A program made the position numbers and the translations under genes. Below the pieces are notes generated by a model, which was not told the origin of the DNA, searched no databases, and was given only the letters and a program-made list of their open reading frames with translations. A DNA stretch of 64,000 nt from Branchiostoma floridae. Its lineage: Eukaryota; Chordata; Leptocardii; Amphioxiformes; Branchiostomatidae. This document shows positions 17,535 through 60,800 of this stretch, piece by piece. Numbering within the stretch: position 1 is the stretch's first letter; each line of letters opens with the position of its first letter. The stretch spans positions 10,051,788-10,115,787 of the forward strand of contig NC_049988.1 in NCBI RefSeq assembly GCF_000003815.2, read 5' to 3'.

Positions 17535-17684
17535 AACTAGCGTTATATATATACAATTGTGTGTTCTTTGTATTTATTGTTGTCCCTTTTCATTAGGTAA
17601 AGAGCACGTTTATACCTAGAAAATAACCTAAGTTTTCAAGCAAAACGAGTTTGCTGACCTTGTGCTTTCCAAATCTATCTACAG

Positions 17685-18518
17685 ACAAGAGATGACGTCA
17701 TGAAAAAAGCTTCACTGCAGGTTAAGCTACAGCTCATCCGGAAACAGCTGGATGCGTTCGCAGTTCTAGAAAAGGAAGTGACGTCACATTTCTCAGAGGA
17801 CACGTTCCTTAACAACATCAGAAGACTGGAAAACACATATAGCAAGAGCCAACTTCAAAGTTTAGAAGTCGTCACCAACTTAGCGCTTTTCCGACAACTT
17901 TTGTTACGGTTACAACTGGACAACAACCATGGCAACAGGGATGTAGACGACAGGGGTGTTTTGGAGTACTTTGTGGACATTTTGCGTCTCATTGATGATA
18001 TGAAGAGGTTAAACAGGTATTTCACAGAGAGGGTGTACACACCACTTGTAGAGAACCTCTTTCCAGCTCACGGCATGGAAAAGGCAGCGACACCTCTCAC
18101 AGGTCACGCACAGGCGGTCACCGTCTTGTCTGAAAAAGGGAAGAAGACCCTACAGGCGAGAGCGATAGAGAACGGGACCCAGGCTTCAAAATGTGACGAA
18201 CGAACCGCCAAGTTTCTACGGACAGTTAAACGACTTTTTAAACTCGAGCAGCGGTGGAGCAGGCTGTCGTCTGACGGGCCGATCTCAGTCGTTCTCTTCG
18301 AGGCGGAGACGAACAAGAACAGCGAGGAGACCGATAGTGTCAGACCCTTCCATCTCATCTCTCGGCTGGTACCAGACCTGGTCGCGAAGGCGGGTAAAGC
18401 GGTGGCCATCACGGAGAAGTGGGTCACGCTGTTTGTTGGGATGTCCGAATGGGCTGGCAAAGACGAGAGGAGTAGTCGTGAGAGACAGATTGAAGAACTC
18501 CGCGGGAAAATTAGTAAG
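17685..18518 (+). CDS. Coiled-coil gene, exon with first recognised ATG
   Basis: Acceptor TATCTACAG and donor AAG|GTAGGC. The in-frame ATG is at 17700; an out-of-frame ATG at 17692 shares its TGACGTCA context. 273 codons from the ATG, ending in phase 0. Confidence 0.8.
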
Positions 18519-19475
18519 GTAGGCTGAATATCCACGTAACGTTACACACATGCGGGATGTGCTATATCATCATCACAGTAAACTTGTCTCCTGTATTGTA
18601 GTTGTACTGGGCGTGCATGTCTGACCTTTTATTATCCATGTACAATGTGCCTTATGAAGAAATAAACTGTTCTTAAAACTTCAAAAGATTAGACTCACAG
18701 GAATTTTCGACTGAATCGCTCAGTCCTCTGCAGCTGCCTGACCCACTGGACACGTGATTATAGATACGTGTGACGTCATGGGTCAAAGGTTGTTAGAAGT
18801 CGATGTCGCAACCCGTCCCGATTGAGAGAAGGTCAGTGGAGAAATGAGCAAATATCAGTCCAGTATTCTAAATATCAAGATTCAAGACACTTCAAAACTT
18901 TGTGGCCGGTCGTGTCCAGTGCTATTAGGTCAGATAGCCGAAAAATTCCTATGAGTAAAACATTTCATTTCTTCATAATGTATTTTAACAACTAGATAAA
19001 CTTTCATGCTAATAAAATGTTCCTTATTATGTTTTGTTACCATTGCTTGACAGACTTCACAGACCATCCAAGAGATTCATAATCCATTTTAACGGTTAGA
19101 TAAACTGTCATGCTAAAATAATGTTCCTTACTATGGTTTGTTACCATTGCCCGACAGACCTCACGAACCATCCAGGAGCTGGAGACGAAACTGGCGGACT
19201 ATCGGGAGGAGCTGGCCGGCCTGACAGCTAAGGACGCCCGCTATGACGAGCTGACGGAGGCGTTCCAGATGGCGTCCGTGTCGTCAGAGGAACTCAGCAC
19301 TGACATCAGTGATCTGGAGGAAACAGAGAAGAAGGTAAATGGGTGTTGTTGATTTCTCGGATAATCTTTGCATATTTCTCGGTGATAATTTTCATAGCGC
19401 CTGCTTTGTGTGCACTCTTTCACTCTCTGTGTCTTTGTCCTTCTGTGTGTGTGTGCCTCACTTTCTCTCTGTTTC

Positions 19476-32920: not shown

Positions 32921-33020
32921 ATGTCCATGAGGATCGCAAGCTACAAACGAACCGCGGTGCTGGGGTTACTGTGGATAACGATGGCCGAGGCGATAGGAGA
33001 TGTTATGACCCTGGAGGAAG
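32921..33020 (+). CDS. RAMP-like B, signal-peptide exon
   Basis: ATG at 32921 just after an acceptor-like ATTTTACAG; donor GTAAGT at 33021. 100 nt, ends in phase 1. Encodes the signal peptide and VMTLEE. Confidence 0.88.
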
Positions 33021-35331
33021 GTAAGTTTCCTACAGAACGTAGTATGTCAAGTCTGTAACGGGATCAGAAGTGTTTAGCCATCCCCAAAACTCATTGTCTA
33101 TGCTGGCGATTGTATATGTACCTTTAATGGACGGTATCTGTATCTGTATCCATATGCATCTGTATCTATATCCATATGCATCTGTATCTATACAGCACGC
33201 CCTTCTGTGTAACACACCAGTTTTGTAGGTGCATGGTAGCAGTTGGTTATGTTACGGTTATTTGTCACACCTGACCTTGCACAACTAGCTTACTGTATGT
33301 TGTTTAATGCTATGAAATGAAGATGTCTCTACGATATTAAATGGCAACGAGTTCCACTCGACGATAGTCCATGTGAAAAAACGAACTTTTGAACAAAACA
33401 ATCCTAGATTGGTGACTCTAACACTTGAAGTCATGGCTATTTCTTGCGATTTTTCACGAAAAAGCTCATTTCATGACTACGTTGATCGATTCTGATAAAG
33501 GTATATGATATAGGTAGTTTATCTATTTATTAGTTTGGCTGTTCAGCACGCACAGCCAGGGCTGCCCAACTAGCCTGTGGCTATTTCAAACGACTAGCCC
33601 TGCTGATAAAACAGAGACAATACAAATGGGATTTAACAAAGACAGGAAAGGGTATTTATCGGGAGGTTTGTGGAAAAATTCCTGGCATTATCGTTACAAT
33701 GTTCCATGCTGCTGAATGGGTTTCGACGATTAAGCAACATCCTTAGACGACAACAGGAATAAAGTACTGTGCCTATAATGCTGACAGATAAGGCAGAATT
33801 ATTTCAAGAATCTATTGAGAGCCAAAATGTTGTATAGCTCCGTCCTTGGCGCTGAAAGGTATTCAATTGCAGCAATCATTATAATTAAGGCGTGCATTGT
33901 TCCATTAATACTTTACCAAGACATGTTGTCGATCCCCAGCGTCTGTTGGACAAAGATAGGCTTAACCCGGGTTCATGGAACGCACATTTCTACCCGTTAA
34001 GTGGGTAACCATAGCTATCACCATCCAGACAGAGTGCCTGTATCCTGTGTGATACGCACGACAATAGCAGGGATTAGAGAACGGTCATAAATTCCAAACA
34101 CAAAATGTTCTGGACAATTTGATTTCCGGCAATGAAATGCAGACAAACTGTCTATATAGTATACCCTTTCAGCTGAGAACATGGCATGTTTTTCGCAGTG
34201 AAACCGCACTTTTTCGTACAGAACTAAATGTCACATACTATGACATGTATCAATGGCAACGTATCACAATTCCAACTATGTGTCATAATTGATTGTCATG
34301 TGACAGACCTCAACCATTATGTACCTCATTATAAACAATTGCGGCCGTAAGTGGCAGTAATTTCTGTGACACATGCACAAAAATTATAGCATGTTATTTC
34401 AGTAAGGATTTTTTTAGTAGAACGGACAAATGCTCACTCCTTTGGTATCGGGCCATGACGTTTTGTGTCTCTGCGAATTTGAATAAATGTTGTTTTTTTA
34501 CAGTGACGTCTGCAGTGGAAGCTGCAGAGGCTTGGCGGGAATGCCCGGATGCTGAAACCTACAAGGCTTACATGACGTCATGTGTTCTCACCTTTGCTGA
34601 GGACGTCAGTTTGCTTGGGAACGACACCAGATGTGTTTGGCCAGAACCGTCCCTGCCAGCCTTGCGGTAAGGTTCTGTTACTCCAGCTCCCCCTGTTGAA
34701 CATTGCCCGCACTGCACTCCCATGAACGTAAAGACTACCGTTGTCGCTCTAATAGGTTACATTGGTGAACTAAACGTCAAAGATTGAAAAGACAAAAAAG
34801 TACCTCAGATTTTCAAACCTATTAGCATAATTGGAAGATGGCCAGAAATGATATGTATATCAACGGAAGCCTTTGACACATTGCCATATAAAATCTGAGT
34901 CTTATGTTTTGTTGGTCATTCTTCAAAACGAAAATATCAAAATCACATAGGTGTTGCTAAATTCAATAGAAAACGTACAGTAAAGGGGAAGGGGGGCTCA
35001 CATGCATCGAAAATGATGCGTAAAGCAACTGCATAGTCTTTTTTTTCTGAAAGAGCTTCCTTTGCTCTCCAGGCCCTACCAGAGACTAACAGACTGCGCC
35101 AAGCTGGTTGGACAACTCACCGACTGTCGCGACGCCGTGGTGCTGAACAGGTTCATGCTGGCCCTCCACAGAATAGTGTACGTGGGCTGTCCCAGACCCC
35201 CGGAGCACATGCTGGAAGCCCCACCACACATCATAGCCTGTTTCGTTACCTTGACAACCACCATGACAATCGCGGTCGCCATCATGCTTTCCTTGTCAAG
35301 AAATCCACCAATCAAGATACGCCGTACATAA
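32921..35331 (+). CDS. RAMP-like protein B, complete coding region
   Basis: Exons 32921-33020, 34504-34666 and 35073-35331 (phases 1 and 2) encode 173 aa. Residues 1-26 form a signal peptide (AVLGLLWITMAEA core). The ectodomain has all six RAMP cysteines at 47, 60, 77, 96, 106 and 127. By the known human RAMP1 disulfides (C27-C82, C40-C72, C57-C104) these should pair 47-106, 60-96 and 77-127. The last exon opens with RPYQRLTDC, matching RSYRELADC of RAMP1. One membrane helix at about 141-162 is followed by the 11-residue tail SRNPPIKIRRT. Length, exon count and phases match vertebrate RAMPs (about 150-175 aa). It should act as a membrane partner of a calcitonin-family receptor. The ATG lies two bases after a TTTTACAG acceptor, so a non-coding 5' exon is expected. 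Confidence 0.92.
33135..33191 (+). repeat. Short tandem repeat in intron
   Basis: Units of about 24 bp built from ATCTGTATC and CATATGC, in intron 1 of RAMP-like B. Confidence 0.8.
34504..34666 (+). CDS. RAMP-like B, exon 2 (N-terminal ectodomain)
   Basis: Acceptor TTTTTTTACAG, donor GTAAGG at 34667, phase 1 in and 2 out. Carries the first three RAMP cysteines and RCVWPEP. Confidence 0.9.
35073..35331 (+). CDS. RAMP-like B, terminal exon
   Basis: Acceptor TTTGCTCTCCAG, stop TAA at 35329-35331. Carries RPYQRLTDC, the last cysteines, the membrane helix and the basic tail. Confidence 0.92.
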
Positions 35332-37849: not shown

Positions 37850-37989
37850 TTTATTGCTTCGGAGAAGTGAGCTGAAAAAGGCATGCTTGTTGAAATATGC
37901 TTAAGCTGCTGGGAGATGATATTATTCTTCCCTAATTATGACAGAAGTGAGTGATTTGCATTTAATATTTGATGATTGTCACGTCCTGC

Positions 37990-39534: not shown

Positions 39535-39580
39535 ATGTTGGACATAGAGGCATACCAGCTGGCCATTGCCTTGCTCTCGG
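39535..39580 (+). CDS. RAMP-like C, exon 1 (signal peptide start)
   Basis: Follows acceptor TTATCTACAG at 39516, so a non-coding exon lies upstream. In-frame TGA at 39520 fixes the ATG at 39535. Donor GTAAGT at 39581, 15 codons plus one base. Confidence 0.7.
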
Positions 39581-41098
39581 GTAAGTTAAATCGTTGATAT
39601 GTTTATAATCAGCAGCGCCCTTGGAGAGAACAGCCCGAACACCGAATCAAGTGGTTAAATAATGTCCTAAAACAGTTACCTTTTCTGACTTCAGGGTTGG
39701 TCGTCTGTTGATATCATTTGCAGAAAATATCTGAAAATACTAGACAATACCAGGATGCTTTATCAGCAGTGCATGACAAAAACATTCACAGAAAATACCA
39801 ATGAAAAACTAACATGGTGCTCTCATCTTTTCTTGGAAAATACCAATGAAATACTAACATGGTTCTCTCATATTTTCCTGGAAAATACCAATGGAAAATT
39901 AACATGGTTCTCTCATCTTTTCTTGGAAAATACCAATGAAAAACTAACATGGTGCTCTCATCTTTTCTTGGAAAATACCAATGAAATACTAACATGGTGC
40001 TCTCATCTTTTCTTGGAAAATACCAATGAAATACTAACATGGTGCTCTCATATTTTCCTGGAAAATACCAATGAAAAACTAACATGGTGCTCTCATATTT
40101 TCCTGGAAAATACCAATGAAAAACTAACACGGTGCTCTCATCTTTTCCTAGTAATGGTGATAGGGATAAAAGGCGACTGTAACATGACGTCATTCCATGT
40201 GGAGCTAATAAAGTCAGTCGACTCCTTCATCTCTGAGTCCCATGATACAGCAACGGAGACTGGCGACGGCCACATCTCCCCATACTGCAGGTAATTAAGT
40301 AGATGGAGAGAACTTGTCCTCTGTTATAAATTTTAACGTAAACATTAAGGGACCGTCAAGACATATCACGTCATATCACGTACCGCTTTGTATTAACACT
40401 TATTTTTCTTGAATTTGAAATAATCACAAGAGACCCCCCTGGCAATTAGATATGCAATTATACGTTACCAAAACGAACGAGCCACGGGGATCCGACTGGA
40501 AAGCTTTCCCAACGGCCATGACCGGTTTTCTATCGATCGCATGATCTGTACGACCCGGGTCCCATGCATCTCCTGAGAATACATTAACCCCTGGGCTTAC
40601 TCGATTCATGCGTCTGCATCTGGTGGGTATCTCCTCACTACAGGCGCTATACTGACGTGCTGACCTGCTCAGAGATGTTACTACAAGGAATGCCATGGTG
40701 TAACTCATCGGAAATACAAGAAGCGTTCCCGACGATGCGAGAGGCCGGGCAAGTGGCTGAAGAGTGTGGACTGCACCGCAACTTCACTTGGTACAATTCT
40801 ACTGCGGGTACGAATATGATTTCTTCTAAACATGTATCAATATTCACACTGTTGAAATAATTTAACCGTAATAATCAATATGAACTTTCAAGTTCATAAG
40901 TGGGACCGCGTGGCTTAGTGGTATTGTGTTTGCCTCGTGACCGAGAGGTTGCGGGATCGAATCCGCCTGCCGTGCTGCCGATCTTGTGCCCTTGGGAAAG
41001 GCACTTTACACGAACTTTCCTCACTTTACTCAAGTGAAAATGAGTCGCCCCTCGGATAGGACTTTAAATGGAGCAAAGACTGAGTAGTCGGCCCACCC

Positions 41099-41132
<34 letters not shown>

Positions 41133-42293
41133 GAACTTTCAATGATCTAGTAGTGTTATTAATCTCTCAGTTATTGGCAAATGTCAAATTGTCATTTCCC
41201 CAGATTCAGCCAACAATCATCGGAAAATGTCAAATTGGCCATGGTAATGTTTCTTATAAGTATGCTATGTTCGAGCGTGTTTTTTTATTCGGGTGTATTT
41301 CAATTTTCTGTTTTGGTCCTAACTAGAAGATGATGACTTCCTACACGAAGATGTCATGATTAGATGCAGAGAGTGGATCTACCAAGGATACCTGCACACG
41401 TGCACGGAGAGATTCGCCAGAACTATCTCAACTGTTGAACAGACGGAACTGTGTGTTTGGCCTGGTGAGCAGGTGCAGTAAGTACCCATCGTCATGGACA
41501 GTTTAAAAACATCGTTGTCAAAAAAAATCTCTCTGCTAACAAAGTGTTAATGATTTGATGGTGACAATATGTGTTTGAAATAGTTCCGTCCGTCGTTCTG
41601 TTATGGAAACCGAATGACCGGGTACATTACAGAAGTTTGACTTTTACGGACACTTTAACTAGAGACTCTGGTATTAATTTTGATAAATCAATGTTAGATA
41701 AGGTTTCATGGATTGAATTACGCATTAGCTAATTTATAGGTCGATAATGTATGTAGAAACTATATGTATGTATGTATGTTTGGTACTACTTGTTCATATA
41801 TGTGGCACCAACTCTACATCAAGAAGATTGTTATCAGTTGTTTGTACTTTGTTCTTCATAGTTTTTAATTTCTTTTTGATTTATAAAATTTGTTGTCGGT
41901 TGTTAACAGTTGTTTTGGGGTTTGTTTACAATTGTTTTCGTGCTGTCAATGATTGTCTTTTAACAAAATGTGCCTCTGTTGCTTAGGCCATACACGGAGC
42001 TTGCAGCCTGCGCACATCATGCCGGGAAGCTAACCTTTAACCTCGACAGCCTTCAGTATGACGACTTCATGAAAGGGATTCACCAAAAGTTCTACCGCCA
42101 TTGTCACGACTGGAGGAACCGAGGCGAGTTCGACCCTCCCAGCGACATCTTGGCTGCGTGTGTGGCGGCACCGACTGTGGCAGCTCTGGTAGCCGCCATC
42201 TTGTTAGCAACCTGGGATTTAATACTCGGTCGGAAACAAAAGATGCCAGTAACAACAGACACACATGACGATGACGCAGGGTATGAACAATAG
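39535..42293 (+). CDS. RAMP-like protein C with two tandem RAMP ectodomains
   Basis: Five exons (39535-39580, 40152-40290, 40644-40807, 41327-41477, 41987-42293; phases 1, 2, 1, 2) give an unbroken 268-aa frame. Residues 1-23 are a signal peptide (YQLAIALLSVMVIGIKG). Domain 1 (about 24-115) has Cys 25, 61, 70, 81, 103 and the motif RRYTDVLTC. Domain 2 (about 125-215) has Cys 130, 142, 159, 175, 206, CVWPGEQ and QPYTELAAC. A membrane helix spans about 221-243, then a 25-residue tail rich in Asp (HDDDAGYEQ). Known RAMPs have one ectodomain. The exon phases show a duplicated exon pair joined through a phase-1 intron. Each domain lacks one cysteine of the RAMP1 set (the C40 position in domain 1, the C82 position in domain 2). 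A SINE lies in the intron between the domains. Confidence 0.85.
39791..40150 (+). repeat. Minisatellite of eight 45-bp units ending at a splice acceptor
   Basis: Units start GAAAATACCAATGAAA and end CTCTCATCTTTTC.TG. 45 bp is divisible by three, and the frame stays open through all units (15-residue repeat ENTNEKLTWCSHLFL) into exon 2. The final unit carries a change to TTTTCCTAG, which is the acceptor of exon 2. Confidence 0.95.
40152..40290 (+). CDS. RAMP-like C, exon 2 (domain 1, N-terminal half)
   Basis: Acceptor TCTTTTCCTAG made by the last minisatellite unit, donor GTAATT at 40291, phase 1 in and 2 out. Encodes the end of the signal peptide, GDCNMTSFHVEL and PYC. Confidence 0.8.
40644..40807 (+). 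CDS. RAMP-like C, exon 3 (domain 1, C-terminal half)
   Basis: Acceptor CTCACTACAG, donor GTACGA at 40808, phase 2 in and 1 out. Encodes RRYTDVLTC, PWCNSS and EECGLHRNFTWYNST. It stops before any membrane helix, unlike the last exons of genes A and B. Confidence 0.82.
40901..41131 (+). mobile_element. tRNA-derived SINE
   Basis: The head has an A box (TGGCTTAGTGG near 40911) and a B box (GGATCGAATCC near 40955) with tRNA-like spacing. A body containing CCCTTGGGAAAGGCACTTTA and GTCGGCCCACCC follows, then an (AAT)n tail. GAACTTTCAA occurs at 40882-40891 and again at 41133-41142, a likely target-site duplication. It lies in the intron between the two RAMP domains of gene C. Confidence 0.8.
41327..41477 (+). 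CDS. RAMP-like C, exon 4 (domain 2, N-terminal half)
   Basis: Acceptor GGTCCTAACTAG, donor GTAAGT at 41478, phase 1 in and 2 out. Starts with the acidic linker EDDDFLHED, then IRC, LHTC and LCVWPGEQ. Confidence 0.85.
41987..42293 (+). CDS. RAMP-like C, terminal exon (domain 2, TM, tail)
   Basis: Acceptor TCTGTTGCTTAG, stop TAG at 42291-42293. Encodes PYTELAAC, FYRHC, the membrane helix and the acidic tail. LTFNLD stands where other RAMPs have a Cys. Confidence 0.9.
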
Positions 42294-42849: not shown

Positions 42850-45800
42850 CTGTAAAAGAATATCCTGAATTAGCGATTGTCGAAAACAAACATTGAATGA
42901 GACATTTTGATTGCAAAATCGTAACTCCCTTTAGTAGTTATGTGTTGGTGTCCTTTGAATTTTAGAACATTTAAGTATTATGTAAACATAGCGAAAAGAA
43001 TGGTGAATAAAAAAATGCTTATCAAACAGTTTCTCTTGCGATATGTGGAAAAGGACATTCACTACATTGTGCTCGGGTCTTCATGCCAAAACATCATATA
43101 CAGACTCTCAGACATATTTGACTCCATCACCAAGACACCATGTGGGTGGAGCCTGATTCTGATACTTACCGCGTCATCCTTGCCAAATATCTCCTGGTAC
43201 AGTTTCTCATCGTGCTCAGGAGTCTTCTCATCCGGGACCTCGCGGAGGGGGTTGGCCCTGAGTAATAGCCAGAAGTACACAGCTGTATAAAGTGTTTGCT
43301 TCTTAGAAAACAAAAGCTGTTTATCTACGTTGTGAGAAGTACAATCAAGCATAAAAGTGTGAAGATCCAAGCTGAAAGGACGGAGATAAGGGTGGAATGG
43401 AAGGTGACGTCCCAACGACAGAGCCTTGGGTTAAACGGAGTCAGATACTGAGTGGTGTAAACAAATTGAAAAGTTCAAATTTTGTACAGTTATACAATCT
43501 CTGTGCGCTAAGAGTATGCGTGTGGGGGCTGGGGTGAACTGGAATTGCTAAGATGTGGAGCAATATGCTAAATGTCTCCTGGGAGGACCGAGTGAGGAAC
43601 TCCACTATGTACCTGGTCGGACACTATGTACGACATACAGATCTGGTAGCCAACCAGCTTATCCTCTTGGGGCCAACAGAGAGAAAGCTAAAAAGGGGAA
43701 GAAAGTGTACTACCTTCATCAACAGCCTTAAAAGGGACACACAAATCAGTAACAACACCACAGCAGAGCTTCGCTCCCTCATGGAGGACAAGGCTGAGTG
43801 GAGAGGAAGGATCCATTGTGACCCGTGATGACATCCCTGATGTCCACGTTCAAGGTTCAAGGAGCAATATCTTTTTCCCTACCTTCCCGGGAAGTACCGC
43901 GTCACAACCAGCTGCCCTCCGGGCGGCCTGCCACCTGACGCCGAGCTGGAACTGGTATCGTCCCTGACATCTGTGTACCTGTTCAGGACAAACACGTTAA
44001 CTTCGAGTTCCTTTGAGAGGTGCCATGTACAACATTCAACAAACGTTTTCATTTATATGCTGGCCATTAGCGCCCCAATAACTAAATTAAACCACGACGT
44101 GTAGATGTTTTGGTAGCTTTATCAACCAAAGGTGGTGCAAACTATCGGCAATCTGATACTTGATGATTGCCTTTATTGTACATCAATGACCTATCGGGGT
44201 TAGTATAGGCATACAGATACACACATGGTGAAATTGAGATGGATTCTAACACTAATCTAAAACGTGGGTTCTAAAACTACTCTGATACATTTGTTCGGCG
44301 TCTTCTCGTCTTTTAGTTATGTTAAAAATGTAGCTTTGCGAGGTGTTTGATATAGTATGAATGATTTACATGATGCGACTGTGCATTTGCTTTGATCATG
44401 AAATTGAGTCAACCCACCCAAAGCCTGAGTGTAGTTGACATGAACTTACTTTCTACCGCGGGACCTCAGCCACAAGTACCGCGCTAGGAGCAGGAGCAGC
44501 AGAATCAGCAGGAACGCCGCCAGTGCTGTCAACACTATACCAGCGATACTTAGTGCAGGGTCTGAGAAAATAGAGAAAAACAGTCTGAGAATAGTATATA
44601 CAACAATGGAGATAACTGTGCATATGCAGAATGTACACGTCAATATCAGGAATATGGGCAGTTGTTATTCACAATTATGAAATTGGTCATTTCGCAATCA
44701 GTGTCATCAGTACATACCTTGATTTTCGCACAGCGATCCGGAATACCCCGTAGGACAGCTGAAGAAAAAAAAAATGAAGACGTTATTTTCTACCACATTC
44801 CCTACGTACAGGAAAAGAAGCGAATGTGAACTTAATAGGTGTCCAATGGTATTTGGATATCAAGTATCAGGTAGCGTTTTAGTTTTAACTAAAAAAAAAG
44901 TATACATATATTTCTAAAATTGCAAGAATTAACAATAACATCACAATAAGACGTTTTTCTACATTCAAAGCTGGTAATCGACCAGATTACCACCATTGCA
45001 GATTGTATATGATAACGTTCCTCGTACATGTACCCACATGTAGTAAAACAGACAGGCGTTCATCTGTTTAGTATGCTTTAAACTTCATTGGCTCATTATT
45101 CTACCTGAGTAAAGGTCATCAAAACATATGGCCAGAAACAAAGTCCGAAGTTTATTGTCAGGAAACATAATCAAACCGTTACTTACTCACAAACTCTGTC
45201 AAAGCCATCTTCTCTGCAGGTTCCATCATTCTCACAAAACCCAACATGGCACAACTCTGCAAGCAAAGATGTCATTTTCGATGAAATGTACGTGTATTTG
45301 TAAATGGACGATCCATATCAAACATGTAAAGCTATCTGAATTAAACATGTGCCTTTGCAATGGTATCAATTGTTAACCCCAATAAAGAATCTTATCCAGC
45401 GTTGAAAACGATACCGTTGTACTACGGATTCAATAGACAGCTTTACGGGCAATTAATGGAAAGAAAACCCTTCTTGCATCTCAATACAACTTTGTTTAAA
45501 AGAATGAGTCTGTCCTGTCGTACCCCTCACAGCATGGCCGTCGAAGTTAAGACCACTGGCGTTGTCAAAGTCATTGAACATTTCGATCAGGTGGTGGTGT
45601 TCCGTGTGGTTGGGGAAAGTTACTACGTGTACCACGTGTAAGCTGCCATCGTAGAAGCGTGTGATCGCCAGGCTGAGTACATCTACCCGATGAGTCCTGT
45701 AGAATTGCCGAATCTAGAAATATTTCAAACAGAAATGTCAGTAACATAATAGCACATATTGGCAGTGGCGTACGTTTATCATAAAAGGTGGAGAAAGATC

Positions 45801-48800
45801 ATCTGAGAGAAATTATTGACTTACTACTTTATCGTATCTGTTTGCCAATGTCTGGAAATCCATAGAGGAGCAATCATTCAGCGCTGGGCGCCAGCCCTCG
45901 CCGATCACCAACAGCTCGACCTCAAGGGTGTCAAACACTGCAAACCAAACCAGAATGAATTACGTCAAATTTAGAAAAAAAATCTTAGACAACGTGATTT
46001 AAAATATCGACTACCTTGTATAACTATTCACAGGGCAATAAAGCATGGTTTTAGTCCGCATTCGTATGCTCAGTTTCAGTTTAAATTGTGTTTATTCTTA
46101 TAACGTTAACTAGTTCTCTTGAAGCTGAAATGTAGTGCTGCCACCGAGGTTGGTCTACGACAGTCCGCTACCAAACGAGTGTCCCTCAATGCTTTTGATA
46201 TTTTTGATATCCAAAGGAGGATAGGTATATCATATGTATATGTATCCTATTGCAAAAAACAAGACGTTCGTCCCTGATCTTTATTTTTGTGTGGTACACG
46301 ACTTATGAATAATACGTGGTGACCAGAACAGAAAATATCTAGTTATCAGTCTCAACAATTACTTTCAGAACTTCCAACAAAAGAAATTGAGGAAGACCGA
46401 AATTGCAAACTACAAAATGGTTCTCGACCAGCTGGGGAAATTAGCCTCAAGTAAGCGGAAACCCTTGGCCAGAATGACCCTGAGATGTGAAGGCTTGCCA
46501 CTAGTTACGGGAGGATCTAAGTCTAAGTAACTAGGACTCGAAATCTTAATCACTGACATGGTTCACAGTATGTGCCGTTCCCCCTCCAGCCGTTCCGGCA
46601 TCTGCACTGCCCTTGTCCTTGACCTTGACCTTGTCCTTGTCCTTGACCTCTAATGAAGTCTGCGTGACGACTGCACTGACAGGACACAGCTGTGGACGGT
46701 AAACCTGGTCAGTAAATCCGTGTGCTGCAATTATCTGTCATGACATGTATCATTCGGTATATCTAACTCTATATCATCAACCAATATGAATACAATACCC
46801 AGTGTCACTTTCACCATGTCAATCCATATTGTAGAAAAGGACTGCTAACAGAGTAAGACCGAGCAGCTGTACACAAATCGTCTTACCAGGGAGTTCTGGA
46901 GCAGAAGTACTGGGTGCAATGGTGCTGGGAGTAGGTGTTGACGTTGGGGCCTCACTCGGTGTCGGCGTTGGGCTCTCACTCGGTGTCGGCGTTGGGCTCT
47001 CACTCGGTGTCGGCGTTGGGCTCTCACTCGGTGTCGGCGTTGGGGCCTCACTTGGTGTTGGCGTTGGGGTCTCACTCGGTGTCGGAGTTGGGGTCTCACT
47101 TGGTGTCGGAGTTGGTGCCTCGCTCGGTGTTGGAGTTGGTGCCTCACTCGGTGTTGGCGTTGGGGCCTCGCTCGGTGTTGGAGTTGGGGCCTTACTCGGT
47201 GTCGGAGTTGGGGCCTCACTTGGTGACGGAGTTGGGGCCTCACTCGGTGTTGGCGTTGGGATCTCACTCGGTGTCGGAGTTGGGACTTCACTCGGTGTTG
47301 GGGTTGGGGCCTCACTTGGTGTCGGAGTTGGAGCTGCACTCGGTGTTGGAGTTGGAGCTGCACTCGGTGTTGGAGTTGGGGCTGCACTCGGTGTTGGAGT
47401 TAGGGCCTCACTCGGTGTCAGAGTTAGGGCCTCACTCGGTGTTGGCGTTGGGGCCTCACTCGGTGTTGGCGTTGGGGCCTCACTCGGTGTTGGAGTTGGA
47501 ACTGCACTCGGTGTTGGAGTAGGAGCGGTGGTAGTCACTGTTTCAACTGGGGCAACGGTACTCAGTGATGGGCTTGGTATGATGATACTGGGCGTTGGTG
47601 TTGGGACGCCGCTTGGTGTTGGGCTAATGATGGCACTGGGCGTCGGGCTCGGTTCGATGATGCTTGGTGTTGGGCTTACTGCCGTGAGAGGAGGTGTTGG
47701 ACTAGGGACAACGCCGGGTGATGGGCTTGGTGCGATAGTACTTGCCGCAGCACTAGGTGTTAAGCTTGGTGTAATAATATCTGACGTTGGGCTTGGTGCG
47801 ATGGTGTCTCGTGTTGGGCTTGGGACGATAGAAGCCGGCGTTGGACTTGGTGTAATGGCACTTTGTGTTGGCCTTGGTGCAACCGTAGTGGGGCTTGGTG
47901 TGAGGATGGACTCCGTTGGACTTGGTGCGATGGTAGTTGGTGCTGGGCTTGGTGCAACAGTAGTTGGTACTGGGCTTGGTGTGAGGATTGACTCTGTTGG
48001 ACTTGGTGCGAAGGTAGCTTGTGTTGGGCTTGGTGTAAGGATAGACTCTGTTGGACTTGGTGTGACGGTAGTTGGTGTGATGATAGAATCTGTTGGACTT
48101 GGTGCGACGGTAGCTTGTGTTGGGCTTGGGGTGATGGCTGTTGGTGTCAAGATGATAGCTACAAATGGAAAACAGTTATTTCAAACTTTTGTTTGAAAAT
48201 CGGAGATACCCAAAGTAGACAATGTTAATGCCCTCCTTCACTGGGAAAGGAATTAAATAAAGGAAATTGTGGTAGTTATCCACGATTTCATGCACCATTG
48301 CTAGTTCAGATGATTGGTCATAGAGAAGAATACCTGTGCAATCAAACCCATTTCCTGTGTATCCATCTAAGCATTCACAACTGAAGGACCCGTCTGTGTT
48401 GGTGCAGGTGGCGTTGTCGTGACATGGACCGGTCAAACATTCATCGACATCTGTAAAATAAGGCGAAAAAATCAACAAATGCAAATCATTCTTTGATTAA
48501 GAATATCAAAAGAGTCTATTACAGAAAACAGTATCACTTTAACAATGCCTCAGACAATCATTTACCTGTGCAACTGAACCCATCTCCCGTGTACCCATCA
48601 GTACAGTTACACACAAACGACCCGTCCGTGTTGGTGCAGGTGGCGTTGTCGCTACAAGGGCTGTTCAAACATTCATCGACATCTGTAAAATTAGGAGAAA
48701 ATCTCAATAAATACATTTTGCTGACTTAATCATTCTTTGATATCAAAAAAGTTTGATAAGGAGAAGACAGTATCATTTTACCTTGCCTCAGACAATCATT

Positions 48801-51800
48801 TACCTGTGCAACTGAATCCATCCCCGGTGTACCCGACTGAGCAGTTACACACAAACGACCCGTCCGTGTTGGTGCAGGTGGTGTTGTCGTCGCACGGACC
48901 GTTCAAACATTCATCGACATCTGTAAAATTAGGATCTCAATAAATACATTTAGCTGACTTAATCATTCCTTGATATATGAGAATATCAAAAGAGTATATG
49001 CAGGAGAGGACAGTATCAATTTCTCTGCCTCAGAAAAGCATTTACCTGCACAGCTAAATCCATCCCCAGTGTATCCACTGCTGCAGTTACATACAAACGA
49101 CCCGTCCGTGTTGGTGCAGGTGGCGTTTTCATGGCAGGGAGATGTCAAACATTCGTCAACATCTGCAAAGGATGACGAGTCAACATGAAAGCTAGAGAAT
49201 TAAGGCCATTTTTGTCACAAGTATCATATCGTCTTTTAAATGTTACGATCTTACGACAATTTCCTTTACCCTGCAACCACACATATTTACGTACCTGCAC
49301 AGCTAAATCCGTCCCCAGTGTATCCATCAGTACAGTTACACACAAACGACCCGTCCGTGTTGGTGCAGGTGGCGTTGTCGCTACAGGGGCTGTTCAGACA
49401 TTCATCAACATCTGTGAAACGTATGTATTGTATAATTATAACTAGTGATTTCAAGACTTCGTTTTCACACTTTATACATGATATTTTGAAGTATTCAATC
49501 ATCATCTCTCTGAAGAAGTCCTCGGTACCATCACGCCAGTATAGCTTATGTTATGGCAATATAACAAACAGAAAACACTAAGTAAAACACATCTGGCACA
49601 CCTGTACATGTGAACCCATCTCCTGTGTATCCAACTGAGCAGTTACACACAAACGACCCGTCCGTGTTGGTGCAGGTGGCGTTGTCGTCGCAAGGAGAGT
49701 TCAGGCATTCATCAACATCTGTAGACAAGACTGGCAATTAACATCATTTCCTGATTTCATATACAACACAAGCCATTTGCCACAATGAATAATGGTTTAA
49801 ATGGTTATTACTGCACTTTTCACACCTGTACAGTTGAAGCCGTCCCCACTGTACCCATCAGTACAGTTACACACAAACGACCCGTCCGTGTTGGTGCAGG
49901 TGGCGTTGTCGCTACAGGGGCTGTTCAGACACTCATCAACATCTGCGAAAGACAAAGTATATCAAAGGCAATTCTGAACATTTGGGATCTTAAATATATC
50001 GACAGTCCAACCACCACCATTGTATGAAGAACCATTCATTCCAAGGACAAAATATGTCTGCCCACCTGTACAGTTGAAGCCGTCCCCACTGTACCCATCC
50101 GTACAGTTACACACAAACGACCCGTCCGTGTTGGTGCAGGTGGCGTTGTCGCTACAGGGGCTGTTCAGGCATTCATCAATATCTGCGGAGGAATATATAC
50201 GTCATTCAGTGACAAATTGTTTTACCATATGAACGAATCAAATTAATAATGCTTTATTTCGTTCCATACGCGATTTATCCATATACATTTCTGTAAAAGA
50301 TTATCACTTGTTTTTATTTGTCTAGTATAGTTAGCATTGACGTAGTTTTCTCTACAAAGAAGATAATAGTATTTTATGTTATTGTGAAATAGGCAGTATT
50401 GTACCTGTGCAAATAAACCCATCTCCGGTGTATCCGACTGTGCAATTGCATACAAACGACCCGTCCGTGTTTGTGCAAGTGGCGTTGTCGTCACAAGGAG
50501 AGTTCAGGCATTCATCAACATCTGAATAAGGTATAAAGAACAACGATCAGGGAGCGTTTGCATTGTTCAGCAAATAGAGGGATCTAACAGCAGTAACTTT
50601 ACAAACAAAAGCACTGAAGACATTGCTAAGAATCACATCTTTGCCCACCTGTACAGTTGAAGCCGTCCCCACTGTACCCATCCGTACAGTTACACACAAA
50701 CGACCCGTCCGTGTTGGTGCAGGTGGCGTTGTCGCTACAAGGGCTGTTCAGGCATTCATCAATATCTGCGGAGGAATATTTACGTCATTCAGTGACGTAG
50801 GAAAATTATGTTTACCATAAAAAATTTAAAAAATGCTACTTTATCTCGTTCCATACGTGATATTTTATCCTTAGACATTTCTGTTAAAGATGATCACTTC
50901 TTTTCTATGTCTAGTCAAGTTAGCACTGATGTAGTTTGTTCTACTTAAAAGACAATAGCATTCCATTCTTCTTGTGAAAAAGACAGTACACTGAGTATTG
51001 TACCTGTGCAATTGAAGCCATCCCCGGTGTACCCGACTGTGCAATTGCACACAAACGCCCCGTTCGTGTTGGTGCAGGTGGCGTTGTCGCTACAAGGGCT
51101 GTTCAGGCATTCATCAACATCTAACGAGGAAAAACAATGTATATACGTTATTCATAGGACATAGGACAATTAAGTTTACCATGTAAAAAGTCTACTTTAT
51201 TTCGTTCCACACGTGTTTTTTTTTTCGTACAAATCTCTACAAAATCTGATCACATCTGTTTTTGGTCTAGTAAAGTTAACATTAGTGCAGTTTATTCTAC
51301 TTGAGATTTAAGAAATGATTCCGTTTGATTGTGAAAAAGACAGTATTGTACCTGTGCAATTGAACCCATCTCCGGTGTACCCGACTGTGCAATTACACAC
51401 AAACGACCCGACCGTGTTGGTGCAGGTGGCGTTGTCGCTACAGGGGCTGTTCAGGCATTCATCAACATCTGATGAAGATATAAAGAACGACGATCAGAGG
51501 GCATGTTCATTGTTCATCACAGATGTAACGGCAGTAACTTTAGAGAATAAGACCTGTTGTAAGGACATCGCGTCTCTACACACCTGTACAGTTGAACCCA
51601 TCTCCACTGTACCCATCAGTACAGTTACACACAAACGACCCGTCCGTGTTGGTGCAGGTGGCGTTGTCGCTACAAGGGCTGTTCAAACATTCATCGATAT
51701 CTGTAAAATACAAAGAATATAAAAGACAATTTTAAACATTTGGAATCCTAAGTATAACGACAGTCCTTCTACCATCATTGTATGCAGAACCACTGTAAGG

Positions 51801-54800
51801 ACTGAATTTTTCTACACACCTGTACAGTTTAAGCCGTTCCCACTGTACCCATCAGTACAGTTACACACAAACGACCCGTCCGTGTTGGTGCAGGTGGCGT
51901 TGTCACTACAAGGGCTGTTCAGGCATTCATCGACATCTGTAAAATACAAAGAATATCAAAGGCAATTCTGAACATTTGGGATCTTAAGCATATCGTGAGT
52001 CCATTTACCACCATTGCATACAGAACAATTGCAAGGCGAAAATATGTCTACATACCTGTACAGTTGAAGCCGTCCCCACTGTACCCATCCGTACAGTTAC
52101 ACACAAACGACCCGTCCGTGTTGGTGCAGGTGGCGTTGTCGCTACAAGGGCTGTTCAGACATTCATCGATATCTGTTGAGAATGGAAAACGTATGTGACT
52201 GGGATATTCTTTTTCATTGAAAACAGCCTTAGGTTATTACTTCTATTTTGGGTAATGAAAATTGAAACATCTGTGCTTGTGTTAAGGGGATTTGCGGTAC
52301 CATTATTACCTTTAACCTCTAACATACCTGTACAATTAAACCCGTCTCCTGTGTATCCATTTGAGCAGTCACAACTGAAAGACCCGTCTGCGTTGGTGCA
52401 GGTGGCGTTGTCGTGGCAGGGAGCGTCCATACATTCGTTGACATCTGTAAAAATACGTAGTTCAGTCAGTTCAGTTCAGTCAAAATACGTAGACAAAACG
52501 TATCATTATTCATCTGTAGATTATAAGCTAGAACACTAAAAAAAAATCATTACCGACAAAAAGTATTGCTGATGCCAGTATGTGTCTACATACCTGTACA
52601 ATTGAAACCGTTCCCAGCGTATCCAACATTACAGTCGCACTCAAACGACCCGTCCGTGTTGGTACAGGTAGCGTTGTCGTGGCACGGTGCGTCTAAACAC
52701 TCATCAACATCTGTGGAGACATATGATCATGTTAGCGAAAGACTATAAACTCGTTGGGTATCACATAAATCATTTTTTCTGTTGGAATGTATGGAATTTT
52801 CTAGTAAGGATCCCGGGCCCGTTACACTCAAAACCGATTCAGTTGTCGAGGCAGACGTACCAACACAGTGGGTCCCGTTTCCTGTATATCCGGTATTGCA
52901 GAAGCATTCAAACCACAGGAAGGTGTCGTTGCATGTGGCATTGGAATGACAATCGTGGAGACCAATATCACACTGGTTGATTCCAGCCAACAGTGCTGAA
53001 AATAGAAGACAGTAAAAAGATATCTTTCATTGGCGAATTGCTGAAACATTAGTATGGTATTGAGGTAAACACATTGAAATACTAAACAAGAGTAGACACA
53101 TTATTTGTCACTTTCGTGTTATATGGTTTGCAATAGATTCACTGTTGTTATTATCATCACGGATAAATTCCATCATTTGAATCTCTAGGCAATGTACGTT
53201 GTGTTACAGACTGAGAAGCATTCTGAATACCTTTCCTGCATTTCGTAATAAGAAGCTTGGACTGTTCTAATGAATATCACCCTGAAGAGAATTATCTCAT
53301 TGAGTTAGTCCCAAAATATAACAACAACAGTCAGATGTTATGAATGGTCTTTTTTATGCTAAATCGTGTGACAGGTCAAACACAATCAGCAAAATCGTGC
53401 CACAAGAAAAAGACTACTCACCCTCATCTCCAATGACATATAGAGCAGGATCTACTGATTCATTGCCAAAGAAGCCGTCCTGTGTGTGGTTTGTGTATAA
53501 TCCTTTAAACTCTGGGACGACCTGTTCTGTCAGGTTGACTTGAACCACTGGTATCACACTGCCTGGCCTGTAGGAACAGAGACGAGACTGTCCAAAGAGA
53601 TCTGATATGATTTGTACTATGATATATTTCACACAATTTTTAGGTTATTACATTCCTGGCTAAATGCATTTTAGGACGAAATGATTATAACCTAAAGCTA
53701 TAGTGATTATAATGAGGCTAAATGATAGTTTTGGCTTCTGCAAAGTGTTGATAATATGCGTTGATTGCAATTTGTTATCTGGAAGATACTAGTAGCTGAT
53801 AGTGATATATCAGAAACGGAAATAGCCAACACGAACCTTAAAGCTATGACTGCAATACCCACAATCCATCTGGCGATTCCTCTGTTGATTCTCCATAGCT
53901 GTAAAGACAGTAAATTTCATACAATAACTGAAATGCACAAATAAGTCTATGATATCTACTTTTCGGCATCTGTGCTTCGCCTTTAGATTTCTCTTGTTAC
54001 AAGTTACTTGAAAGGCCCACGGACTATAAGTAAAGAACTGGAATCTATAGAAACTATAGTGAGTTTTGAATTAAACTGGAAGGCTTGGTGATAACCATTC
54101 ATGGTTGGTTATGTTATTTGAGCGAGACTTTTGGAATAATTACAATGCCTAATTATTGAGTTGTTTATCAGAAATGCTACGGTCATAAGGCATTGGTACT
54201 AACCGTATTGAGTATGAAGTCGATGAGTGTCCGCCTCAGTCCGGAGTCTCTAAACACTGCTATCCATCGCGGGTTTAAGAAGATGAAGGCCAGATGTATG
54301 GTGACGACTCCTGACGGTAATGGTGTGGGAAAAAGAGGTTAGTTGTGCAACACAATAGTTAAATATTCATTACTGGGGCCACAGTTCCAAACCAAGATTG
54401 CGGGACCAAAACGTATTACATAACAACAAAAAAACACAAAACGTAGAAAAAATAAGCATAGTTTGTGTGTATTTCTAAGAGCATATTTCTATCTTTCGTT
54501 TCAGCAAAAGGCCCGACCGGGCTCCGGTTTGGAAATGGTTCACCATAATTCACCAGTACGATTGATCGTGAAAATTATTAGAAATCATAACACTGCTGTA
54601 ATTGACGTACAACTTGTGTAAACTTTGATTTTGATACGTTTTGTGTGACGTTGCAAGGAGAAACTAGTCTAGATCTCTAGTATACAGCACTTTTGGTTCG
54701 ATTCAGGATACACATCATGCTTACGGTGACATTCCAAGGCTCCATCCCCAAGAAACCCGTCCTTGCATGCGCAGCCTACGACACCATTCCCCGTGACAAT

Positions 54801-57800
54801 ACAGTCAGCATTTGCATCGCATTGGGGAGGTTTGACTACACAGATTCTCGATGTAGCTGTAAGATAAAAATGGAAGTATTATCGAAAATGTCGTCAATTG
54901 TAACAGTATGAAGATTTTAGTTGATTAGCTTATTTGCATCACTTTACCCGGCCTGCAACAATTATGTTTTTGGCGACGCCTGATGGGCGAGCCTAATAGT
55001 ATAGTGTGCGACCGTTTGTTACATTTAATGATGATAGATAAGATTTTCTAAATGTCATAATGTTTGAAGTTGTTCATTTATATCATTATTTACCCAGACT
55101 CCAGAGGTAACGGGTTCGAGACCGCTGATTTATCTCGATGTTGTGCTGTTGGGAAAGAGACTTAAAACGACTTTCCTCACTTCACTCACTACACGTGAAA
55201 ATGAGTACCTAGCTTCGGTTAGGGCCGTCCTTCGGATAGGGCGTTAAATGGAGGTCATGTTTGAGGAGAGCCACACCTTCCTGGTGTGAGTGGTTCAACC
55301 CTTCAGTCCTATGGCCGCACATGGGCAATTACTGTCATATTGAGGTCACCTGAGTGGCGCCGAATGGCAGCCACTCCAGACCCTTGCGATTTAGGCTTGC
55401 TTATTGTAAGCTCCTCGCAACTCAGCCCCTGGCTGCGAAGTGATAGTAGTCGGCCCACCTAATACCTTACCTGTGCAGTTAACGCCGTCTCCTTCAAACC
55501 CATCGGTACAGTTGCAGGAGAACGCCCCGTCAGTGTTTGTGCAGGTCGCGTTGACATGGCACGGAGATGGAGACGCTGCACATTCGTCAATATCTGAAAC
55601 CCAAACAACATACCTCATTCCTTGTCGTGGTCATGAGAAATACAATGAAATCTAAGCACAGTTGTTTTTACTTTTTTAAATTACTAGACTAAAGGAGATT
55701 TAGTCCTAAACGTATCGCGTCATCAGTGAAAGTTAGCTCAAAATTAAGCATTTGACTTCCTAAGAAAATCATTTACTACGGAAAAAATATTTTGACACAG
55801 TCTGGAGATGCATCATTTATAGCAACAATGCTAAATGATATAAAGTGACAAGCGGATGAATGGATTAAATCTGATTTTCATAACATTTTGTGCTGGGTGA
55901 AGAAGGCAACCTTGTTTGAGTAACATTGTAGATATCGTTACCTGTACAATTAGTCCCATCTCCTGTATAACCAGCCTTGCAGGTGCAGTCAAATGACCCC
56001 TCAGTGTTGGTGCAGTTTGCATTCAGATCACAGGTGGAGTTATCAGCACATTCGTTCACGTCTGAAATATCACAAATACTTTTACATCACACTTTCAGTT
56101 ACTTAATGTAGCACCCCGTTAACGTGTGACACAGCAACATTACAGAATATATTCACTGAATGAAACCTGGAGATTCGCCTTCCTTCACTTAGATGTCTGG
56201 TGCAATGCGTCCTACTAGATTGTGTTTCCTGAAATGCAACAAGATAATGAAAGCTATACAATTTATACGCAAACCATTCAGTAGGCTGAAAGTAAAACTG
56301 ACAGTAAGCTAAAGCGCAAAAACGCAACTGCCAATACAAGCAGTACAATTTCGAGGTACTCAGCTGACTCTGCCAGCGCATTGCCCCATGACTCATCAAG
56401 TGCCATTGTCAGGCAGCAGGGTTGATAAGCACTAGATTTCTAATTCATATATTTGCACATATAATACACATATTTGCAAAGCAAGATAAATCATCTAATG
56501 GCAATGAGGAACAATATGTACAGCTCAAGCAGTAGCCATCCAATAACCATGCGTTGCAACAGCTCCGAGTAACAGCTCCGTGCGTTGCAACAGTTATATC
56601 TAAGACTTGTCTTTCTTACCCGAGCAATTAAAGCCGTCCCCTTGGTAACCATCAAAACATTCACATATGTAGGAGCCATCGGTGTTAGTACAGGTCGCAT
56701 TTGTGTCGCAGGGAGAATCCTGACATTCATCTGTGTCTGAAGGGGTTAGTCAATGGAGAAATGGCTCAGGAGGGAAGAAGAGCTTATAATACAATGAAAT
56801 ATGTTATACGAAAGAGCTCCTATTAGAAATATTTCTGCCATAAGGCGGGATCGGAAAATATAGTGACGCATCAAGTGCCAATTCTATTGCGTGGATCTAG
56901 CAAACCCAGTAAACTACAGTGGTCCTACAAACTAGTTGCCACATTGTCAGGCAGCAATGTTGATAAGCACCTGGTGATTTCTAATTCATACCATATTTCC
57001 AAAGCAAGATAAATCATCTAATGACAATGTGGAACAACATATGTACAGCTCAAGCAGTAGCAATCATTGATGATAATATCATGCGTTGCAACAGTTCCAT
57101 GTAACAGCTCAATGCGTTGCAAGAGTCATATCTAAGACTTGTAATTCTTACCCGAGCAGTTAAAGCCGTCCCCTTGGTAACCATCAAAACATTGACATAT
57201 GAAGGAGCCATCGGTGTTAGTACAGGTCGCATTTGTGTCGCAGGGAGAATCCTGACATTCATCTGTGTCTGAAGGGGTTAGTCAATGGAGAAATTTTCAG
57301 AAAGGAGGAAAATTTTATGATACAATGGAATATTTTATACGAAAGAGCTCCTATAAGAAACGTTCCTGCCATAAGGCGGGGGTCGGAAAATATAGTGATT
57401 CATCAAGCGCCAATCTATTGCGTGGATCTAGCAAACCCAGCAAAAGTGGTCATACAAACTAGTTACCACACTGTCAGGCAGCAATGTTGATAAGCACATG
57501 GTGATTTCTAATTCATACCATATTTCCAAAGCAAGATAAATCATCTAATGACAATGAGGAACAACATGTACCGCTCAAGCAGTAGCTATCCTAACCATGC
57601 GTAGCAACAGCTCCATGAAACAGCTCCGTGCTTTGCAACAACTCCAACAGCTCCGTGCGTTGCAACAGCTACATGTTACAGCTACGTGCGTTGCAACAGC
57701 TCTATGTAACAGCTCCACGCATTGCAACAGTCATATCTAAGACTTGTATTTCTTACCCGAGCAGTTAAAGCCGTCCCCTTGGTAACCATCAAAACATTCA

Positions 57801-60800
57801 CATATGAAGGAGCCATCGGTGTTAGTACAGGTCGCATTTGTGTCGCAGGGAGAATCCTGACATTCAACTGTGTCTGAAGGGGTTAATCAGTGGAGAAATG
57901 GCTCAGGAAGGAGGAAAATTTCATAATACAATGAAATATGTTATATGAAAACATAAGAAGCATTTCTACCACATGGCGGGGTTGGAAAATATAAGGGTTA
58001 TATCAACATTTCAATAAAGTACTATTTGTGATAATGGTGAAAGGCAGAAAGGATGTCAACATCCGGTCTAGTTACTACGTCTACTGTTGCCAGCAAAAAT
58101 TGTGTTTTAAGTAAGCAAATACCTTGCCTGTATACCAAAATGCATACTTCTATGTAGCCACTATGTTTCTACGCAAAACAAGTGTTGTGTGCCAAAAGCT
58201 ACACAGTTACGAACCACACTGGATACGGCCATGGATAAGAAGCTAACCACTTCTTCTGGCAGTAAATAGTAGACACACTGCAGCGACACCCATTACTGCC
58301 TTTATGAGACTTACACCAGACAAAGGGCAACAATGATACCCTGAATAATTAGTAATACCCTGTGCAATTTTCACCATCTCCATCATAGCCCACTAAGCAA
58401 TCACAAGTGTAGGAACCAATTGTGTTGGTGCAGGTTGCATTGTCGTGGCAGCTCGTACTGTTCAAACATTCGTCAATGTCTGGAACGAAAACGACATCAA
58501 CATGTTACCCTTCTAGTCCTATCTACAAGTTTAAGTTACTGTACAGTAAAACTGTGCGTTAAAGGGCCAACGAAAATCAATGGCGCCAGACAATTATGAT
58601 CTCGCATCGATTCAGCTTAGCCAAGCGCTAAATAGCCTAATGACCTAATCCTACGCCCATGTGCATTTCTGCAGAAGCAATAGCTTGCCTGATGCCTAAA
58701 TCCATCATCCACGCCAAACACTATGTGATTTAAAACACCGAAGAATATTTCCTTCAGCTGTAGCAGTCAAGTGTCGCCACACTGGAATGTGTCTCGTATC
58801 AACGTAGACTATTCTAGAAAATCATCAAGCAACAATGACTATTCTATAAGATATTGCTAGCAAATAAAAGGCAATCCGGTGCACGTTTTGAGGACAAGAA
58901 AGTACACCGTGCCAAGACAGCAACACGCGCAACTACGGGCAATGCGCAAACGAAGCAGCTCTACTCAAACTCTAACAAAATCATAAGCAAAGTAAATTCA
59001 TCTGAACCTGTGCAGTTAAATCCGTCTCCTTTGTACCCATCTTGACACATACATGCGTAAGACCCGTCAGAGTTTGTACAGGTCGCATTTGCATGGCACG
59101 GATTGGCTAGGCACTCATCTAATTCAGCTGTATTAGAATGGGCCATCGCCTTCTCGCCAAAGAAAGAAAGATATTAAGATTTTGTACTACAAAATAACAT
59201 TATCTATAAAAGTTATTGGTATTAGGTGTACTTCTTACCCGTGCAATTAAAACCATCCCCGTCATATCCCACTAAACAATCACAATCGAAAGAACCGATT
59301 GTGTTGGTGCAGGTTGCGTTGTCGTGGCAGGTGGTGGTGTTCAAACATTCGTCAATGTCTGCAAATAGAATCACTTATCATGTTGATGGACGTAATAACA
59401 ACCGAATTTCAACCATAAGTTATAGTGGTAAAGCACGTCAAAGAACCAATGTAAATAAGTTCAAGACAACAATAATTCCTCTGAGATCAAAGCAAGCAAG
59501 CCAAGCAGTCGAAAAAAATATCATCATCTCGATGCCTATGGATGATCAGCACATTCTCCTAGAAACTACTGCCTACCGGGCGTTAAAAGCTTTGATCTCT
59601 AGATCTACTAATTACTACAACTAATCCCTCCAAAATGAAGCTGCAATGAGTAACTACCACCAGCATCTTGAGTAACAAATAAGCTGCAAGACAAGGGAAT
59701 CAAGGATGTCTTCATTTTTGCTGACACTACTTCAGGGAATATTGATGGTATCAGCAGATTTAATTAAGCGCGCCATTTTTGAACGAAAGGAATTGCAAAG
59801 CTCTGAGAAGGCAAAGCAACATGAGCAACCACAGGCGCACTATACTCCCAACTGATATATCTGTGCAGCTCTGCTCTAACTCTAGCCAAATTGTACTTCA
59901 ACGAAAAGTCGTCTGAACCTGTGCAGTTGACTCCATCTCCTTCGTACCCAACTTGACACGTACATATGTAAGACCCGTTTGTGTTCGTGCAACTCGCGTT
60001 AGCATGGCAAATGTCTGTCTGCTCGCACTCATCGATGTCTATAAGAGAGAAACGGTATTTCCAGTACAGTAACAGAATCATCAGCGCCACAAAGTACACC
60101 CTGTATGTATCGCTAAGTTAATATCGTCACTCTCCCGGATGGGTAGGTCGACATCTGGCACTCATCAGTGTCTATTATTATGTAAAATTGTTTGTGATAT
60201 GAAAGGCAGCCGAACATACCATGTACCTGGGTCGAATAAAGGAGTAAAAAGAAGAAAACCTTTTGCAAAACAAGTATGCAAGACACATTTTGTAAGTATG
60301 TAGTTAAAAATGAATTGTCAAAGGTAGCGCTGATTTATGCTGATCATTCACTTGAACACACAGCATCTTGTGATTTGGGACACCACAATGTAAGAATAAC
60401 AAGCTGTTTAATCTATGAACCAGAAGCAGTTGCATCAGCTAGCACAGATGTACTTCTTACCAGTGCAGTTGAATCCATTCCCTTCATACCCATCCATGCA
60501 GTGACATCTGAAAGACCCATGTGTGTTGGTACAGATCGCATTAGGGTCACAGGGAGAATCCCGGCATTCGCCTATGTCTGTATGCGGAGAGTAAAATGTA
60601 GAAAAATAAAGTCCCTCAAGCAAAAACACCGATAATGTAATGATCATTTCAGAAGCCCATTGCTGATTACCATAGATAGATGTAATGGTGCAAGTCTAAA
60701 TACTTACACCATTACATCTATCTATGGTAATCTGTTTTTCCGAATAGCATCCAACCGTACCGAGCAATTGCAAGCAAAATGAATCGCATCGCAGGGCAGC

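Follow-up and report, generated by a model that had tools for sequence, protein, structure and literature searches.

RAMPs set which peptide a calcitonin-family receptor responds to, and those known to us have a single ectodomain. Can a RAMP carry two? This question is raised by a stretch of 64,000 nucleotides of the lancelet Branchiostoma floridae (contig C10, NC_049988.1, positions 10051788-10115787, within a 513-Mb genome), hereafter called the window and numbered from its first nucleotide. Its plus strand holds a gene, which we call gene C, whose predicted product has two domains in front of one membrane helix. On balance, we lean towards gene C encoding a RAMP of type I that crosses the membrane once and has two ectodomains in tandem; the gene would have arisen by fusion of a gene resembling one of its relatives, gene A, with a gene resembling another, gene G. 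The alternatives weighed below overlap, and the confidence placed in them is not meant to add up to certainty.

Gene C has an open five-exon frame ending in a RAMP domain and a membrane helix

The frame of gene C runs through five exons, all with GT-AG borders, which exit in phases 1-2-1-2 and join into 268 codons followed by a stop, as an earlier annotation of the locus made from its letters (the sequence-only reading) had described. Exon 1 (39535-39580, MLDIEAYQLAIALLS) holds the start codon and the first half of a signal peptide, and exits in phase 1 with a donor, CGG/GTAAGT, that scores 10.3 bits and belongs to the top 0.12% of GT sites in the window. Exon 2 (40152-40290, phase 1 to 2) encodes the remaining signal peptide and the first half of domain 1, and exon 3 (40644-40807, phase 2 to 1) encodes the second half of domain 1 and no membrane helix. 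The first half of domain 2 lies in exon 4 (41327-41477, phase 1 to 2), for which a second possible AG acceptor is found 3 nt downstream. Finally, exon 5 (41987-42293) encodes the second half of domain 2, the membrane helix, a tail of about 21 residues and the stop.

Hydropathy gives the order signal peptide, domain 1, domain 2 and single membrane helix. Windows of 19 residues with a mean hydropathy of at least 1.6 start only at residues 1-4, 9 and 218-231, and the best value elsewhere is 0.34. Thus, the protein has one signal peptide and one helix, which bears out the earlier description. All four N-glycosylation sequons (residues 26, 82, 108 and 113) are within domain 1 or the linker.

The codon content of these exons was compared with a table built on 1099 codons of the window. 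In each of exons 2-5, the true frame outscores both other frames, with in-frame scores of -0.13 and -0.27 for exons 2 and 3, close to those of exons 4 and 5 (0.05 and -0.21). Once joined, exons 2 and 3 score higher than 95/95 overlapping open stretches of 303 nt taken from 20.5-34.0 kb, a region presumed to be non-coding. Their third-position GC is 0.56-0.64; the overall GC of the introns is 0.33-0.44.

Intron 1 contains a minisatellite (39791-40147) made of 7.9 copies of a 45-bp unit. The unit has a CTAAC resembling a branch site, along with a pyrimidine tract whose end is GG. The array directly adjoins the real acceptor of exon 2, and the frame through it is open into exon 2.

Domain 2 is certainly a RAMP ectodomain. 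The Pfam RAMP family (PF04901) matches the gene C protein at residues 140-238 only, with an E-value of 8.8e-14 and 51.9 bits for a cut-off of 27, and human RAMP1 matches it within domain 2 with an E-value of 2.3e-9. When the third exons of genes A, B, D and E and of three human RAMPs were aligned with that of gene C (n=8), four columns were invariant (Y3, C9, H33 and C40), all of which domain 2 keeps. In alignment, domain 2 also keeps 5/6 of the RAMP1 ectodomain Cys. We take its five Cys (residues 130, 142, 159, 175 and 206) to be C27, C40, C57, C72 and C104 in RAMP1 numbering. The equivalent of C82 is absent from domain 2, likewise from gene G and from human RAMP2. Gene C has the same parts as vertebrate RAMP1-3, namely a signal peptide, a Cys-rich ectodomain, one membrane helix and a short tail, but with an added ectodomain in front.

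Since exons 1 and 3 both exit in phase 1, exon 1 could also be spliced in frame to exon 4. Exons 2-3 would then be a cassette (303 nt, phase 1 to 1), and both a single-domain form (exons 1-4-5) and a two-domain form would be made. Among candidate signal-peptide exons for exon 4, exon 1 indeed ranks first. However, half of the signal peptide is encoded by exon 2, and the peak 10-residue hydropathy drops from 2.97 when exon 1 is followed by exon 2 to 1.57 when it is followed by exon 4. We regard the making of both forms as possible but doubtful.

Domain 1 is probably a very divergent RAMP ectodomain

The sequence-only reading had counted two RAMP ectodomains. The Pfam match upholds this count for domain 2, whereas domain 1 was matched neither by Pfam RAMP nor by a RAMP profile of our own, and these results weigh against a RAMP origin of domain 1. 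First, residues 1-116 taken alone gave no Pfam RAMP match listed at a maximum E-value of 10, a negative limited by the HMMER filters, which discard most matches above ~0.1. Second, the profile built from eight RAMP domains, with domain 1 left out, gave it 1.8 bits, a score reached by 112 shuffles out of 973 scored (1000 made). Third, BLASTP of domain 1 against gene A gave an E-value of 0.063.

The kinship of domain 1 with RAMPs rests on its exon anatomy and Cys spacing instead of on a profile match. Both domains of gene C are entered in phase 1, and in both an intron of phase 2 immediately precedes a Y-x5-C start. Counted from its split codon, exon 3 begins RRYTDVLTC, with Y at position 3 and C at position 9, and has its Cys at 9, 20 and 42; the eight other third exons have a Cys at 9 (8/8), at 19 (6/8) and at 40-43 (8/8). 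By permutation, these Cys positions together with Y3 were matched in 2.5e-5 of 400,000 cases. An exon-3 alignment anchored at the exon start gave a z of 5.7, with 1/3000 shuffles as good; when each of eight accepted RAMP members was left out in turn, the same test gave z values of 11.9-18.5. Six open sites with a third-exon signature were found in 8 sequences; all are RAMP exons, and domain 1 is one of them. When no frame was demanded, the signature occurred 7 times in 153,106 bases (ten sequences, each searched on both strands). The weight of these matches is reduced by the signature having been composed after domain 1 had been seen, and by its missing genes A and G.

Domain 1 also departs from the family in several ways. 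Its Cys are at residues 25, 61, 70, 81 and 103, with no C40 equivalent, and its end can be aligned in two ways, by pairing its last Cys with the final Cys of RAMPs or by pairing LHRNF with the family HRxF after an insertion. The run of residues conserved in the third helix is not present in register, and the receptor-facing helix is missing in large part. A disulfide between two orphan Cys, C70 and C130, was considered as well, but the argument is weak because gene G also has no C82 equivalent. When the genome was searched with the translation of exon 2, exon 2 itself was the sole match. With exon 3, only two other matches were found, with E-values of 2.8 and 3.0, near C10:5.686 Mb; both were rejected as relatives of domain 1, being frames of a tandem repeat array. 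This array lies within C10:5682000-5691900, and its minus-strand frames weakly mimic exon 3.

Could domain 1 be an unrelated Cys-containing module inserted at phase 1? Such a module would be expected to escape both Pfam RAMP and our RAMP profile, as domain 1 does, and the best Pfam match of domain 1 is DUF1397 (PF07165). We did not retain this family, whose match (E-value 0.013) falls short of its own cut-off; a genome search with PF07165 returned no matches, but 14 controls in the same search were equally silent. An unrelated module would leave the RAMP-like exon anatomy and Cys spacing to chance, as well as the start of exon 2, which resembles those of genes A and D, and we consider it unlikely. 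From these sequence comparisons, domain 1 is probably a very divergent, degenerate RAMP ectodomain. Given this fold and the splice from exon 3 to exon 4, gene C would depart from the one-ectodomain plan, with two exon pairs before its helix.

Gene C would derive from two RAMP genes

By querying the genome with the PF04901 profile and with single proteins, we located seven RAMP genes, a lower bound since these searches score only the best candidates. All are on the plus strand of C10 between 8.27 and 12.91 Mb: G at 8.27 Mb, F at 9.97 Mb, D at 10.02 Mb, E at 12.91 Mb, and A, B and C inside the window. The six genes other than C are all above the Pfam RAMP cut-off (6/6). Like both domains of gene C, they have an ectodomain entered in phase 1 and split in phase 2 ahead of a Y-x5-C start, a rule derived from the lancelet genes. 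Unlike in gene C, their one ectodomain is directly continued by the membrane helix. Genes B and C each have a clear signal-peptide exon and F has a probable one, although a wrong acceptor position had been used in looking for the latter; several candidates compete for A and D, one weak candidate was found for E, and none was above threshold for G. Since these exons are unsettled for some genes, the single-domain status of the six rests on the continuity of ectodomain and helix, and one or another of them may still have a further domain upstream.

The sequence-only reading had explained the phases of gene C by duplication of the exon pair encoding the ectodomain. The phases are indeed present, but they alone prove no duplication because any module entering and leaving at phase 1 fits. 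Over both exons, domain 1 is closest to A (z 3.22, with 8/2000 shuffles as good), followed by D (2.19), E (1.42), F (1.01), domain 2 (0.15), B (0.02) and G (-0.88), six accepted RAMP pairs giving z values of 2.6 to 13.9 in the same calibration. There is thus no excess likeness between domains 1 and 2, for which 861/2000 shuffles were as good. Exon 2 alone gave a z of 3.0 to A (32 of 5000 shuffles as good) and of -0.93 to domain 2. Domain 2, for its part, groups in the tree with gene G (supports 85/84 and 89/86), located 1.8 Mb from gene C, and has the C82 loss and a CxWPG motif in common with it. In addition, exon 2 of gene C begins with TAATG followed by signal-peptide residues, and a similar start is seen in exon 2 of A (TAATG) and of D (TGATG); the second exons of B, E, F and G and exon 4 of gene C have no start of this type.

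Several observations weaken the link to A. For exon 3 alone, the z values to D (3.10), domain 2 (2.94, with 32/5000 shuffles as good) and A (2.85) are about equal, the value for domain 2 speaking for a duplication. The preference for A therefore stems from exon 2. In local alignment, domain 1 against A gave a z of 2.19, equalled by 185/5000 shuffles; the 8/2000 obtained over both exons weakens to ~3% because A is the best of seven; and domain 1 has no placement in the tree, where its branch is very long (3.05).

Taken together, the grouping of domain 2 with G, the likeness of domain 1 to A and the start of exon 2 lead us to prefer a fusion of an A-like and a G-like gene. Judged on sequence, fusion of two different RAMP genes is somewhat better supported than internal duplication, and we judge duplication of an exon pair inside one gene less likely, with some weight left to it. 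In such a fusion, an A-like RAMP gene would have supplied exons 1-3, losing its membrane helix, and a G-like RAMP gene would have supplied exons 4-5, losing its signal-peptide exon, the two becoming joined in a group of RAMP genes that all lie on one strand.

The junction between exons 3 and 4

The two-domain reading depends on the splicing of exon 3 to exon 4, a predicted and probable junction. Its splice sites are a weak point of the model. The exon 3 donor at 40807 scores 5.3 bits (top 3.4%) and the exon 4 acceptor at 41327 scores 5.6 bits (top 6.5% of AG), which makes them the weakest donor and the weakest acceptor in gene C.

Another reading is of two genes, one RAMP consisting of exons 1-3 and a membrane exon inside intron 3, and another of exons 4-5. 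Intron 3 does contain an open frame (41163-41333) with a hydrophobic run ending in TRR-stop, which would be reached by splicing from a donor at 40763 to an acceptor at 41204, with summed scores of 10.6 bits vs 10.9 bits for 40807 and 41327. A second gene would also need a signal-peptide exon for exon 4, and candidates were found at 37883-37946 (donor 8.1 bits, hydropathy 1.83), and at 41181- or 41241-41292 and 41181-41259 (donor 3.4 bits, hydropathy 2.5-2.65). These sites and candidates count against a single gene, but each has its own difficulty. The 40763 donor truncates exon 3, and TM-like frames are common: a region of 13.5 kb treated as non-coding has 1.85 of them per kb on its plus strand. 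The candidate at 37883-37946 sits upstream of exon 1, the 41292 donor would leave an intron of 34 nt, and the 41259 donor would leave an intron of 67 nt with a short hydrophobic run only. Moreover, neither AATAAA nor ATTAAA is found within intron 3, whereas four such signals lie in the kilobase past exon 5. On these sequence features, none of the alternative signal-peptide exons for exon 4 is convincing, nor is the membrane exon in intron 3, and two separate genes are the least probable of the arrangements considered.

Nearly half of intron 3 is a high-copy, SINE-like insert (40895-41130) with an (AAT)n tail at 41099-41130, an observation that we count for a single gene. It has at least 41 matches including itself, at 85-100% identity over ~180 bp (best 40 of 2158 candidates scored), and the other copies among the matches listed are mostly 92-97% identical. 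By eye it is tRNA-like, which was supported neither by ARAGORN nor by Rfam (E-values up to 0.01), as both returned nothing on the window.

Other features of the window and of the RAMP genes

The two other RAMP genes of the window are also on its plus strand. Of gene A, we located exon 2 (8858-9038) and exon 3 (11884-12181), the latter encoding the second half of the ectodomain, the membrane helix and the stop; together they match Pfam RAMP with an E-value of 2.9e-11. Gene B has a signal-peptide exon (32921-33020), with a start at 32921 or 32927 and a donor of 12.4 bits (top 0.02%), followed by exon 2 (34504-34666) and exon 3 (35073-35331), which together match Pfam RAMP with an E-value of 4.1e-8. 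Between genes A and B lies a plus-strand open frame of 289 aa (17658-18527). Outside the window, the third exon of gene F is interrupted by an additional phase 2 intron, which separates the HK codons from the FYADC codons (positions 6744-7195 of locus L021).

On the minus strand, EGF-like repeat exons are found across much of 44400-63900, together with a TP-rich open frame of 453 aa (46819-48180) and a hydrophobic frame near 44446-44664. These features probably belong to one large gene for an EGF-repeat protein.

A possible role for the added domain

Three RAMP-like proteins of Branchiostoma floridae, Bf-RAMP-LP1-3, have been cloned; according to sections of a review, they bring the lancelet receptor to the cell surface in COS-7 cells and set peptide potency (PMC6283891). 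They are of the same family as gene C. Those sections describe a membrane domain and four conserved Cys in these proteins and make no mention of a second ectodomain (PMC6283891). A two-domain RAMP was absent from the literature matches listed (for two of the searches, 15 of 563 and 10 of 50); two of the papers listed concerned CRISPR 'RAMP' proteins, a different subject that was set aside.

By analogy with the cloned proteins, domain 2 and the helix of gene C would bind a lancelet calcitonin/CGRP-type receptor and carry it to the cell surface. Domain 1 would sit outside as a glycosylated cap altering peptide access or selectivity, a role expected because it has neither the helix-3 run in register nor the C40 Cys, and because the sequons lie there or in the linker. 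In the human complexes, according to parts of a report on them, the peptide end adjoins helix 2 and the helix 2-3 loop of the RAMP, and the RAMP moves jointly with the first helix of the receptor (PMC4504005). As a cap, domain 1 would bind no second receptor. The earlier proposal that a tandem RAMP could bridge two receptors is disfavoured, since domain 1 has neither the conserved third-helix run in register nor a Cys at the C40 position. Tentatively, and with clearly less confidence than we place in the fusion itself, we propose that gene C, unlike the other six genes, encodes a fused two-domain RAMP whose glycosylated, degenerate fold would serve as an extracellular cap and give the lancelet calcitonin/CGRP receptor a peptide selectivity impossible for a single-domain RAMP.

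If this is true, gene C would offer a natural two-domain RAMP with which to test how an added domain shifts receptor choice. Compared with the three cloned proteins described in the review sections (PMC6283891), the seven genes located here suggest that lancelets may hold more RAMPs, which bears on the origin of vertebrate RAMPs.

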